From assembly GCF_012317585.1 (NCBI RefSeq), contig NZ_CP042909.1:992001-1056000 (forward strand): a stretch of DNA of 64,000 bases, in the 5' to 3' direction. Positions 52,176-59,205 of the stretch are shown one piece after another. The notes under the pieces were generated by a model. The model was not told where the DNA came from, did not search any database, and worked only from the letters and a program-made list of their open reading frames with translations. This stretch comes from Thermosulfurimonas marina. GTDB lineage: Bacteria > Desulfobacterota > Thermodesulfobacteria > Thermodesulfobacteriales > Thermodesulfobacteriaceae. How positions within the stretch are numbered: position 1 is the stretch's first letter; every line of letters starts with the position of its first letter. The translations under genes and the position numbers were made by a program.

Positions 52176-54182
52176 ATGAGAGGTTTTTGGCGAAAATTGG
52201 CCGGGCTTTGGTGGGCCGGAGCGGGCCTCTTTCTCCTCTTGGCCCTGGTCTCTTATCATCCTCCGGATCCGGGATTCGGGAGGGCGGGGGCCGAAGGAGT
52301 GCACAACTGGGGAGGACTCCTTGGGGCCTATCTGGCCTCCCTCCTTCTCACCCTCTTTGGGGCCGCGGCCTTTCTCCTTCCTCCGGCCTTTTTTTATTTG
52401 GCCCGGAGCTTTCTCCGGGCCCCTAGAGTTCTTCCTCCGGTCTTGGGGATCTTCTGCCTGGTGCTGGCGGCCAGTCTTCTTCTGGGGTTTGTCCCGGAGG
52501 CCTGGTGGGGGCGTTGGCGCTGGCCCCTTCACGGAGGCCTGGTGGGCTTTTTGGGGCAGGCCGCCCTCCCTTACATTGGGGTTCCGGGGCTTGTTCTGGG
52601 CACTTTGGTGCTGGGAGGAATAGGGTGGGGGCTCCTTTGGGGGCCTGAAGGTTGGCCACGAGGCCCTTCCTGGAAGGCCCTTTTCCGCAGGCCCCGGGCC
52701 CGAAAATCTTCCGGAAAAAGAGAAAGGGTCTCCAAAGAAGAAGGGCCTTCTCCTTTGGGGGAAACTCCGGCGCCTTCCCTCAAGGCCCGGGGACTCCCCC
52801 CTCCGCTCTCCCTTCTTTCCCCCCCTCCGCGTAGGGCCCAAGGACCTTCTTCGGAGATCCTGGAGCGCCTGGGGCGGACCCTTCAGGAAAAGCTACGGGA
52901 GTTCGGGGTGCACGGAGAGGTGGTGGGGGTGCATCCCGGACCGGTGATCACGGTCTACGAGTTCCGTCCGGCGCCGGGGGTGAAGATCAACCGTATTGCG
53001 GCCCTGGCCGACGATCTGGCCCTGGGCCTTTCGGCCGAAAGTGTGCGCATCGTGGCCCCTATTCCGGGGCGCGACGTGGTGGGGATCGAGGTCTCCAACC
53101 CTGAAAGGGAAACGGTCTGGCTCCGAGAGATCCTGGAATCCGAAGCCTTTCGGAAGTCTCCCTCTCCCCTCACCCTGGCCCTGGGAAAGGATCAGTCCGG
53201 ACGCCCGGTGGTGGCCGATCTCCTGCGCATGCCGCATCTTCTCATCGCCGGGGCCACCGGGACCGGAAAGAGTGTTTTTATTCACTCCGTTATTCTGGGT
53301 CTCATCTTTAAGAACCCTCCGGAAAGGGTGCGCTTTCTTTTGGTCGATCCCAAGCGCATAGAGCTTTCGATCTATGAGGATATTCCCTACCTCTTGCATC
53401 CGGTGGTGCTTGAGCCCCGTACGGCTACCAAGGCCTTGCGCTGGGCGGTCTCGGAGATGGAGCGCCGCTACCAGCTGCTGGAGGAATCCCGGGCCCGGAA
53501 TCTCGATTCTTACAACCAGAGGGCCGAAGAAAAGCTACCCTACATCGTGATCATCATTGACGAATTGGCGGACCTCATGGTGGTGGCCTCGAAGGAGGTG
53601 GAGACCCTCCTTACGCGGCTGGCCCAGATGGCCCGGGCCTCTGGAATTCATCTCCTTTTGGCCACACAGCGTCCCTCGGTGGACGTCATCACCGGGCTGA
53701 TCAAGGCCAACTTTCCGGCCCGCATTTCCTTCCAGGTGTCTTCGAGGACCGACTCCAGGACCATTCTCGACACTCAAGGGGCCGAAAGGTTGCTGGGGGC
53801 CGGAGATATGCTTTTCCTGCCTCCGGGAGGCTCTAAGCTTCAACGTATTCACGGTCCGTATGTTTCCGAGGAGGAAGTCCGGCAGGTGGTGGAGTATCTG
53901 CGGGCCCAGGGAGAGCCGGACTATTTGGCGGACTTTGAAAGCTTAGAGGAGGAGGATCTGGAAACTTCCTTTTCCGACGAGGAGGCCGACGATGAACTCT
54001 ACCGAGAGGCCGTGCGCATTGCCCTAGAGCGGGGTAAAATTTCAGTCTCCATGTTACAGCGCCGCTTGCGCATAGGCTACAACCGGGCGGCTCGCCTGGT
54101 GGAACGTATGGAAGAGGAGGGGATCGTTGGTCCGAGCGATGGTGTGCGTCCTCGTCCTGTGCTGGTGGGTCGCAAGCCTTGA
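52176..54182 (+). CDS. ftsK: DNA translocase FtsK
   Basis: This 668-residue DNA motor segregates chromosome ends at division. It has four N-terminal membrane helices (within residues 1-155) and a short linker. The ATPase has Walker A GATGTGKS (about 365-372) and Walker B VIIIDELADLMVVA. It ends in a winged-helix gamma domain (SVSMLQRRLRIGYNRAAR to the C-terminus) that reads polar KOPS sequences. The length is short compared with E. coli FtsK but typical of SpoIIIE-like proteins. Its 3' end overlaps lolA. Confidence 0.94.
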   Translation: MRGFWRKLAGLWWAGAGLFLLLALVSYHPPDPGFGRAGAEGVHNWGGLLGAYLASLLLTLFGAAAFLLPPAFFYLARSFLRAPRVLPPVLGIFCLVLAASLLLGFVPEAWWGRWRWPLHGGLVGFLGQAALPYIGVPGLVLGTLVLGGIGWGLLWGPEGWPRGPSWKALFRRPRARKSSGKRERVSKEEGPSPLGETPAPSLKARGLPPPLSLLSPPPRRAQGPSSEILERLGRTLQEKLREFGVHGEVVGVHPGPVITVYEFRPAPGVKINRIAALADDLALGLSAESVRIVAPIPGRDVVGIEVSNPERETVWLREILESEAFRKSPSPLTLALGKDQSGRPVVADLLRMPHLLIAGATGTGKSVFIHSVILGLIFKNPPERVRFLLVDPKRIELSIYEDIPYLLHPVVLEPRTATKALRWAVSEMERRYQLLEESRARNLDSYNQRAEEKLPYIVIIIDELADLMVVASKEVETLLTRLAQMARASGIHLLLATQRPSVDVITGLIKANFPARISFQVSSRTDSRTILDTQGAERLLGAGDMLFLPPGGSKLQRIHGPYVSEEEVRQVVEYLRAQGEPDYLADFESLEEEDLETSFSDEEADDELYREAVRIALERGKISVSMLQRRLRIGYNRAARLVERMEEEGIVGPSDGVRPRPVLVGRKP

Positions 54183-56319: not shown

Positions 56320-56721
56320 ATGGAAAGGCGCGAGATCTTGAAATGGACCGTGGGTGCGGTGGCCCTGGGAGTGGCGGGCTATGCGGGCCTTTCGGTCATC
56401 AGGCGTTTTGTCCCCCATCCCCCGAAAAAGATCCTGGTCAAGGAAAAGGATCTTCCCACGGAAATGATACCGGTCAAGGTGGGGCCGGAGTATTTTCTGG
56501 TGAGGCTTCCTGGAGGAAAGCTTCTTGCCCTTTCCCGAAGGTGTCCCCATCTCGGCTGCACGGTTAACTATTTTCCCCAGAAGAATCTTTTTATCTGCCC
56601 CTGCCATCAGAGCCGCTTTGCCCTCTCCGGGGCCTATCTTTCCGGGCCGGCTCCCCGGGGGCTTTACCCCCTCAAATGGGAGAAAAGTGAAGGCGGGATC
56701 CTCCTCGAGATACCGGGTTAG
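56320..56721 (+). CDS. Rieske iron-sulfur protein
   Basis: This 133-residue protein has an N-terminal twin-arginine-like anchor (MERREILKWTV then a hydrophobic stretch at about 10-28). The Rieske domain has cluster ligands CPHLGC (about residues 75-80) and CPCHQS (about 94-99). ATG 56320 follows AGAAAGGAGAG. It is co-encoded with cytochrome b6 (35-base overlap) and a multihaem cytochrome c, forming a quinol-oxidising module. It is shorter than the Rieske subunits of bc1 complexes. Confidence 0.9.
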   Translation: MERREILKWTVGAVALGVAGYAGLSVIRRFVPHPPKKILVKEKDLPTEMIPVKVGPEYFLVRLPGGKLLALSRRCPHLGCTVNYFPQKNLFICPCHQSRFALSGAYLSGPAPRGLYPLKWEKSEGGILLEIPG

Positions 56722-57523
56722 TCCTCGTCTCTCCTGGGGGCTTGCGGCCACCCTAGTAGTGGTGGTGGTAAGCGGGCTGGTCCTGGCCTATCCTTACCGG
56801 GAGGCCTTTCCCTTTCTTTCTACCCTGGCCATCGAAAATGTGGTGCCCTTTGGAAGGCTCTTCCGGCGGATCCACTACCTGAGCGGTCTCCTTTTTGTGG
56901 TCCTTCTTTTGTGGCATGGGGTGGAGGCCCTTCTTTCCGAAAGTTATCAACGTCGAAGCTGGCTGCGCTGGACAGCCCTTACCGCCACCCTTCCCCTGGG
57001 ACTCCTTTTGGCCTTCACCGGATATGTGGCCCGGGGGGACGAGACCGGGCGGCTGGCCGGCTATATTGCCGAGACTTTGAGCCTCAAGATCCCCTTTCTG
57101 GGGCCCCTCCTTAACGCCCTCTTTTTCGGCGTGCGCGAGGAAGGGGTTCACCGGGCCTATCTCTTTCATATTTACGGCACCGGGGCTCTGCTCCTCCTTT
57201 CGGGGATCTGGCATTTTCGCCTGCGGCGGCTTCCTCTGGAAGACCTCCTTTTCTGGGCCACCTTGACCCTTGCGGCCGTGCCCTTTCTCCCCCTGGGCCT
57301 CCACGGCCCGGGTTTCCATCTTTTGGTAAAGGGTCCGTGGTTTTTTGTAGGAATCCAGGAGGCCCTGCGGCACCTCCCTCCGCGCCTGGCGGGGATAGTC
57401 TTTCCGGCCCTGGGGCCTATGCTCTACCTGGGAACCAAGGCCTGGCCCCGGGCCTGCGGGAGGGCCCTTCTCCTCTGGACCCTCCTTTATGGAGGGCTCA
57501 CCGTGGTGGGACTTGTGCGATGA
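56687..57523 (+). CDS. Cytochrome b6-type membrane subunit
   Basis: This 278-residue protein has about six membrane helices. The haem-ligating His pairs are spaced as in cytochrome b6: IHYLSGLLFVVLLLWH and FHIYGTGALLLLSGIWH. GTG at 56687 overlaps the Rieske gene and gives a start just before the first helix; the exact start is uncertain. It would oxidise menaquinol together with the Rieske protein and pass electrons to the multihaem cytochrome encoded next (ATGA overlap). Confidence 0.87.
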   Translation: MKAGSSSRYRVSPRLSWGLAATLVVVVVSGLVLAYPYREAFPFLSTLAIENVVPFGRLFRRIHYLSGLLFVVLLLWHGVEALLSESYQRRSWLRWTALTATLPLGLLLAFTGYVARGDETGRLAGYIAETLSLKIPFLGPLLNALFFGVREEGVHRAYLFHIYGTGALLLLSGIWHFRLRRLPLEDLLFWATLTLAAVPFLPLGLHGPGFHLLVKGPWFFVGIQEALRHLPPRLAGIVFPALGPMLYLGTKAWPRACGRALLLWTLLYGGLTVVGLVR

Positions 57524-59205
57524 GAAAGGGGCTTCCAGGGCTCTTTTTAGTGGTGCTCCTTGCGGTCCTTTTCTGGGAGGCCCGCTTCCGGCGTGCCCCG
57601 GAGGTGCCGGTCCTTACCTCTGGAAGACCTGATCTCTGCCTCACCTGCCATAAAAAGGAACGACCCGGCCCGGCCCATGCCCGTGGGGTGGTGGGCTGTG
57701 CGGACTGCCACCTGGGAGACCCTCTTACCGTGGAAAAGGCTCGAGCCCATCGGGGAATGGTGAAAAATCCTGCGGACCTCCGCTATGCCGAGCGCACCTG
57801 CGGCCGGCCGGAGTGTCACCCAGGCTACCCTGAAAGGGTCAAAAAGAGCCTCATGGCCACCAACCGGGGGATCATCACCACCCTGCGCTACTACTGGGGA
57901 GAGAGCCCGAATTTCCGGGAGAAGATCTCGGTTAAGGCCCTTCTCAAGACGGGGAAGGATTCTCCGGCCCTAGATTACTTCCGCAAGCTCTGTGGGACCT
58001 GTCACCTCTGGCTCCCCCGGGAAAAGCTTCCGGGCTTTCTCAAAGAAAAGGGCGGAGGCTGTGCGGCCTGCCATTTAATCCCCGGAAAGGGCCCGGGGAA
58101 AAAGCCCCATCCGGTCCTGACCCGGAAAATCCCGGTGGAAAACTGCGCCCGCTGTCACAACCGTAGCGGACGCCTAGGCCTTACCTATCAGGGGCTTTAC
58201 GAGGATGAACAGTACGGGGCTCCCATCCGGGAGGGGACCTTCGGGGCCCAGGAGTTGCCCGATGGGCGCTTCGTAGAACGCATCCCCCCTGATGTCCATT
58301 TTAAGGCCGGCATGGCCTGCATCGACTGCCACACCCAGAACGAAACCATGGGCGACGGTAAGGCCTACGCCCACTTTGAAGAGTCCTTGGAGATCACCTG
58401 TGAGGCCTGCCATGAGGGCCTGGGACGCACCGCTAAGGGAAAGCCCCTTCCCAATCTGGTGGTCCGGGAAGGGAAGCTTTTCTGGAAGGCCAAGCTTACG
58501 GGAAAACTCCTTCCGGTAAAAAGGCCCGATCCCGTGGCCTGCAAACATCCGGTGCACCGGAGGCTTACCTGCTGGGCCTGCCACGACCGGCGGGTTCCTC
58601 AATGTTTCGGCTGTCACGTGCGCCGGAGCGCCGGGGAAAAACAACTTGACAAGCTCACCTTTAAGGAGACTCCCGGGCTCTGGGAGGAATTCCGGAGCTA
58701 TATGCGCCTTAAGCGGCCCACCCTGGGCCTTTTTAAAGGCCGGGTCACGGTGCTGGTTCCGGGCTGACAGGACTTTGTAACCTTTCTTTCCCCGGAGGGG
58801 AAGGTCCAACGGGAGGTCCGGCGCATCACCTGGTCCCACATGTATCCCCACAGCACGGGCCAGGCCCGCTCCTGCGAAGACTGTCACGCCGACCCCAAGG
58901 CCCTGGGCCTGGGGTATGGAAGCCTGACCTATAAAGGGGGCTGGCGTTTCACCCCGGCAGAGGCCCCGGCCGAACTCCTAGGAATAGAGCACGGGCTCTC
59001 CCAGGTGGTGACCCTTTCCGGAAAGGCCCTGGTTAACTTCCGGCCGGGGGTGCGGGCCTTCAACGGAACCGAAATCCGGCGCATCCTCCGGGTGGGACTC
59101 TGCCTTCCCTGCCACCGGGACTTTTCCGATCCGGTGATGCGCCACTGGCCCCCACAAGGGCCCTGCCCGGTATTTAAAATTGGAGTATCCTCGAGGAAGA
59201 ATTAG
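57520..59205 (+). CDS. 12-haem c-type cytochrome with in-frame UGA at codon 416 (candidate selenoprotein)
   Basis: This is a 561-residue reading frame if the UGA at 58765-58767 is read as an amino acid, or 415 residues if it stops there. An N-terminal membrane anchor (residues about 5-20) is followed by haem sites CLTCH, CADCH, CGRPECH (CX4CH), CGTCH, CAACH, CARCH, CIDCH, CEACH, CWACH and CFGCH. The UGA in VLVPG-U-QDFVTFL comes next, then CEDCH and CLPCH. The downstream 145 codons stay in frame, keep the same codon style and have no start of their own. ATG 57520 overlaps the cytochrome b stop. It probably accepts electrons from the Rieske/b6 pair. The alternative is a recent nonsense mutation. 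Confidence 0.8.
58786..58804 (+). promoter_or_regulatory. Candidate SECIS-like hairpin downstream of the in-frame UGA
   Basis: An 8-base-pair stem (CTTTCCCC with GGGGAAGG, one G-U pair) encloses a GGA loop. The loop begins 26 bases after the UGA, within the 16-37-base range described for bacterial SECIS elements, and starts with G. An additional weak outer pairing (GGACTTT with AAGGTCC) is possible. It is a candidate only; the loop differs from the E. coli fdhF GGU loop. Confidence 0.45.

Follow-up and report, generated by a model that had tools for sequence, protein, structure and literature searches.

In a 64-kb window of the Thermosulfurimonas marina genome (the whole stretch of DNA that was analysed, taken from a host genome that forms one contig of 1.76 Mb), we characterized a pair of overlapping genes encoding a b-type and a c-type cytochrome, the second of which carries an in-frame TGA codon. 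The features of this locus are listed below in order of position.

56525..57523, + strand: di-haem cytochrome b, start codon uncertain; H-X13-H and H-X14-H helices; Pfam Cytochrome_B
57520..59205, + strand: gene for a 12-haem c-type cytochrome with a predicted selenocysteine (Sec); 561 residues, N-terminal signal/anchor helix
57637..58617, + strand: ten haem sites upstream of the Sec codon; CXXCH at residues 40, 60, 158, 181, 209, 267, 294, 351 and 362, CX4CH at 94
58765..58767, + strand: codon 416, UGA with predicted reading as Sec; UGA in 44/57 and Cys in 13/57 orthologues, Cys in curated ExtM and in the own-genome paralogue
58785..58804, + strand: bSECIS-like hairpin, stem 58785-58792 / 58797-58804, loop 58793-58796; homologous hairpins covary
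58873..58887, + strand: haem motif CEDCH, residues 452-456, beyond the UGA
59101..59115, + strand: haem motif CLPCH, residues 528-532, beyond the UGA

The cytochrome c frame is interrupted exactly once, by the TGA at codon 416 in the context VLVPG-U-QDF, and then continues for 145 codons to a TAG, just as the first-pass annotation had described; if all standard stops are respected, the protein ends at residue 415. Our motif count of 11 CXXCH and one CX4CH (C94-H100) agrees with the 12-haem cytochrome proposed there, including the two motifs beyond the TGA. All 12 motif histidines are kept across 57 orthologues, with a gap at H532 in one of them. The part of the gene 3' of the UGA is under purifying selection, with pairwise dN/dS values mostly of 0.05-0.19 that are similar to those of the 5' part, and a value of 0.34 in one very close orthologue pair with few changes. 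The named near relatives of the protein are found in Thermosulfurimonas and Thermodesulfatator.

The stop codon of the cytochrome b gene overlaps the start of the cytochrome c gene in the sequence ATGA (57520-57523). Because of this overlap, and by analogy with ExtP and ExtM of the Geobacter ext cluster (PMC5877670), the two genes are likely to encode a quinone-linked periplasmic electron-transfer module, in which the cytochrome b is the probable quinone-side partner and which would connect the quinone pool with periplasmic partners by electron exchange; the cytochrome c itself would be a membrane-anchored periplasmic 12-haem protein. The resemblance of the cytochrome b to the NCBIfam model for ExtP is weak (66.1 bits, below the 290-bit cut-off). 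The gene pair is kept at most, not all, loci of the class (those of T. marina's part of the class), and in most other families no cytochrome b partner was found adjoining the orthologues, so that the cytochrome b is not essential to the family. Besides the cytochrome b, the neighbours in the window include a VTT protein, LarC and NadA, and PADLOC returned no match. No convincing further case of frames joined by a TGA emerged when the 64-kb window was scanned. At 52177-52179, where the ftsK ORF begins, a TGA links that ORF with an open frame lying upstream, whose third-position GC is similar; this is probably an adjacent gene and not a case of recoding.

Conservation of the UGA codon among relatives

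The first-pass annotation had proposed aligning homologues at the UGA as a check on recoding. A search of 60 related genomes yielded 30 full-length homologues in the class, in which the codon homologous to 416 is TGA in 29 cases and TGC in one (G017, L030). When the set was widened to 395 genomes of the phylum, we recovered 57 full-length orthologues, with TGA at site 416 in 44 and a Cys codon in 13, always within PG-[U/C]-QD. Among these 57 sequences there was no other residue at the site (Trp included), no gap, and neither TAA nor TAG. The recurrence of TGA in 44 of them far exceeds what chance would give. The TGA-bearing orthologues reach down to roughly 45-50% identity, the Cys-form orthologues are each one uninterrupted ORF, and conservation at the protein level extends from PG-[UC]-QD on to residue 440.

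The motif PG-C-Q is also found in curated ExtM proteins (six compared), in a paralogue encoded by the same genome and in paralogues of relatives. Site 416 is therefore the position of an invariant Cys of the wider ExtM-type family, which Sec416 would replace in one branch. To place the Sec forms we built a maximum-likelihood tree (quick search, SH-aLRT support) from an alignment that excluded site 416, using Cys paralogues as the outgroup. The 44 Sec proteins fall in one clade, in which two Cys rows are nested (L030 and L099) and whose sister is an all-Cys clade of 11. The tree requires three changes between Sec and Cys, versus 14.3 with shuffled labels, and the history would most simply be one gain of Sec followed by two reversions to Cys.

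Selenocysteine insertion and competing readings of codon 416

The second check proposed in the first-pass annotation concerned the machinery for selenocysteine, all of which we found in the T. marina genome: SelA (620.5 bits), SelB (379.4 bits), SelD (359.7 bits) and a tRNA-Sec with anticodon TCA. The selD gene has its own canonical in-frame TGA, giving Sec in GUAAK. We considered and rejected the idea that Cys forms mark lost Sec machinery, since SelA is present in 28/28 genomes tested, Cys-form and Sec-form alike.

Bacterial SECIS elements (bSECIS) are hairpins just past the UGA, with a loop about 16-37 nt off and a G in the first two loop positions. The cytochrome c gene has such a hairpin about 18-37 nt past the UGA, and our analysis confirms the 8-bp stem and the early G in the loop that had been noted before. 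Counted from the U of UGA, the stem pairs positions 21-28 with 33-40; the loop is of 3-4 nt with G within its first two positions and lies about 25-26 nt past the UGA, and an alternative RNAfold register places a GGA loop at 58794-58796. The stability of the hairpin is specific to Sec genes, and its stem covaries. As a measure of stability we computed a z score for the 45 nt past the codon, the reference being shuffled sequences in which the protein was unchanged and codons were sampled according to the usage of the gene itself. The mean z was -2.02 for Sec genes of the class (n=29; 28/29 negative) and -0.93 for Sec genes of other families (n=15; 15/15 negative), values from rows related by descent, so that the tests are not independent. 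Background levels were seen in the Cys clade (-0.42, n=11) and in Cys paralogues and ExtM-like genes (-0.39, n=15), with a mean of -0.33 for control windows within Sec genes (n=189). For the T. marina gene alone, z against synonymous shuffles is an unexceptional -0.7; the statistical support for the hairpin comes from the family, and the single sequence gives weak support. The two Cys reversions differ in this respect, L030 having kept the hairpin (z -3.2) and L099 having lost it (z +0.4).

In the second Sec group, 4/7 stem pairs show changes on both sides, a number of such cells reached by 1/500 shuffles, and the true register exceeds every slid register on the score for pairing and covariation. 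Compensatory stem changes also occur in the hairpins of other groups. The register differs by clade (register sums of 61, 52 and 50 in three groups), and because the position slides in this way there is no single family-wide structure; such drift would be unsurprising, because a bacterial SECIS lies inside coding sequence. In Rfam we found nothing SECIS-like near the gene, the two matches being miRNA families below threshold.

Taken with the Sec/Cys-only site, the full Sec machinery and the Sec in SelD, the Sec-gene-specific hairpin bears out the first-pass proposal of recoding, and we regard the translation of UGA codon 416 as selenocysteine as very probable. By the normal bacterial route, SelB and Sec-tRNA would be recruited by the hairpin just past the UGA and would place Sec at codon 416. 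Since 44 relatives retain the recoded codon and Cys is its only replacement elsewhere, we are dealing with a real selenoprotein family and not a broken gene. A nonsense mutation or sequencing error, that is, a recent pseudogene in which an ancestral Cys (TGC/TGT) or Trp (TGG) codon became TGA, would need but one base change from TGC or TGT, and a Cys form does exist. However, the TGA is retained in 44 orthologues on long branches and in many independent assemblies, TAA and TAG never occur at the site, the sequence 3' of the TGA is under purifying selection and the hairpin is specific to TGA genes; this reading has next to no probability left, as the conservation of the TGA refutes it.

Readthrough that does not involve selenium, by a near-cognate tRNA for Trp or another residue, would yield a short 10-haem and a long 12-haem form, and it would accord with the complete haem motifs in both parts. 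A short form may also coexist with Sec insertion, the efficiency of which is incomplete (in E. coli 30-40%; PMC4513850). That Cys is the sole substitute and never Trp, that the genomes tested have Sec machinery and that the hairpin is of the Sec type all speak against selenium-free readthrough, which we judge very improbable. Even less credible is the production of two proteins by termination at the UGA and internal restart. The earlier statement that the frame has no plausible restart signal needs qualification, as an ATG-started ORF of 121 aa is present at 58840 and could encode a di-haem protein; what stands is that a restart is unnecessary, because codons around the UGA are conserved. The stretch from PG-[UC]-QD to residue 440 is conserved as protein, and the Cys orthologues are one continuous ORF, both at odds with a restart.

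Relation to known multihaem cytochromes

The cytochrome c stays below the cut-off of every NCBIfam model (June 2026). The best match is ExtM (NF040943) at 290.8 bits, below the 800-bit cut-off, versus 970-1084 bits for genuine ExtM members, which we found above the cut-off in 8 genomes. ExtM, encoded in the Geobacter extHIJKLMNOPQS cluster, resembles the T. marina protein in having 12 haems, a similar length and homology over most of that length, PG-C-Q at the Sec position, equivalents of Met112 and Met277, and a b-type cytochrome (ExtP) in its cluster. It has Cys, however, where the T. marina cytochrome has Sec, whereas the latter lacks a surrounding ext cluster (porin ExtI, ExtKL, ExtN) and possesses an additional invariant Cys341. 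A 12-haem PGCQ paralogue in T. marina itself (G000:C1:1314871-1316580) likewise has 12 CXXCH motifs, with about 44% identity over residues 148-539 and the same site, but it has Cys at that site, no TGA, and His for Met112 and Met277. Because this second 12-haem, ExtM-like cytochrome of the genome (also recorded at L040:6695-8677) has Cys, one cell would carry both Sec and Cys versions.

ExtKL (NF040886), first flagged in 2007 as GSU2937 and GSU2936 (PMC1914089), is also a predicted Sec multihaem c-type cytochrome and is common in the genomes of relatives, but it has 5 haems and its Sec lies in GHxIPDG-U-PTPNR in the C-terminal part, so the Sec sites are dissimilar. We rejected an identity of the cytochrome c with ExtKL, as there is no match to NF040886 to E 0.01 and the Sec context differs. 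The Sec form of octahaem tetrathionate reductase (TIGR04315; PMC13188914) is a Sec multihaem cytochrome too, although of a different family and with 8 haems versus 12; its model gave no hit for the T. marina protein up to E 0.01.

The inventory in a review of 2026 comprises 119 prokaryotic selenoprotein families and subfamilies; cytochrome-related entries such as ExtKL (NF040886), a GSU2204-family protein and the Sec form of octahaem tetrathionate reductase are included, and an ExtM-type family is absent among the 119 (PMC13188914). Our searches of the open-access literature turned up no description of a 12-haem cytochrome with Sec; beyond that scope lie subscription papers, preprints and supplementary tables, where an earlier mention is possible. 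This is thus apparently a new, unlisted Sec family, Sec multihaem cytochromes as such being already known from ExtKL and octahaem tetrathionate reductase. The selenoprotein inventory would gain one well-supported family among large multihaem cytochromes, for which few Sec cases are listed. The occurrence of Sec and Cys forms in one orthologous group, with two apparent reversions, would provide natural pairs for assessing the benefit of selenium in a haem protein. Standard gene callers would report truncated 10-haem proteins or two fragments in sulfur-metabolising thermophiles, and such misannotation would distort counts of their electron-transfer machinery.

In the course of these searches we also observed ExtKL-type Sec cytochromes above the cut-off in 26/60 related genomes, nearly all with one TGA. 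Three copies (G013:C21:66645-67838, G019:C1:60940-62142 and G011:C11:70622-71821) depart from this, two being without a stop and one having TAA, and may be Cys forms or a decayed copy. Two ExtKL matches (G015:C6:42783-44000 and G035:C135:2637-3899) have two in-frame TGA codons, one of which may be the true stop or a second Sec. The T. marina genome has no clear ExtKL (best 18 bits); several congeneric relatives have a TGA-bearing one. Tandem pairs of ExtM-like cytochromes (L110-L118) have SP-CQ at the site and a full haem set in the first member, and RPx[Y/H]Q, 10 haems and Ser for the haem histidine 366 in the second. Naming them ExtM and ExtN is unsupported, the tested pair scoring 208 and 307 bits, and we call them ExtM-like.

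Possible role of residue 416

Residue 416 lies between the haem sites at 366 and 456. AlphaFold2, run on the cytochrome c and 7 homologues, gave a pLDDT of 36 and tentative secondary structure only; a search against solved structures brought up nothing beyond nitrite-reductase-type cytochromes, marginal hits of about 60 residues (E 7e-4 at best), and there is accordingly no structural template. Of the histidines that belong to no haem motif, just six are invariant (H53, H77, H197, H260, H346 and H444). Met112 and Met277 do not vary within the family but are replaced by His in many paralogues, the pattern of axial-ligand swaps. In some orthologues non-motif His are as few as 9 for 12 haems, so that at least 3 haems are not bis-His in them. 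Each of the residues that occupy the site across the superfamily (Cys, Sec, Tyr, His) could ligate a haem, and the residue is Tyr or His in the 10-haem tandem paralogues, which have neither haem 366 nor haem 532.

From these patterns, we put the odds at about even that Sec416 sits at or near a haem and acts as a functional redox or coordinating group, not a structural one, and a role as haem ligand is plausible. The more specific reading, in which Sec416 is the distal axial selenolate ligand of one c-type haem, or is so in one redox state, would fit, because the haems are not all bis-His, the site takes ligand-capable residues, and the Tyr/His form appears where haems 366 and 532 are missing; we nevertheless hold it to be unlikely, and if true it would be a naturally occurring selenocysteine-ligated haem. 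Sec416 might alternatively ligate no haem, its selenol being paired with Cys341 or acting on a substrate in a thiol-disulfide-like relay. The invariance of C341 in 57/57 orthologues, along with its absence in ExtM and the paralogues, would favour pairing with Cys341; on the other hand, the Cys clade shows the same invariance, and ExtM has Cys416 without C341. We consider the relay doubtful. Cys341 (58540-58542) lies outside any haem motif, as does Cys549 (59164-59166), near the C-terminus, which is invariant in the aligned class members.
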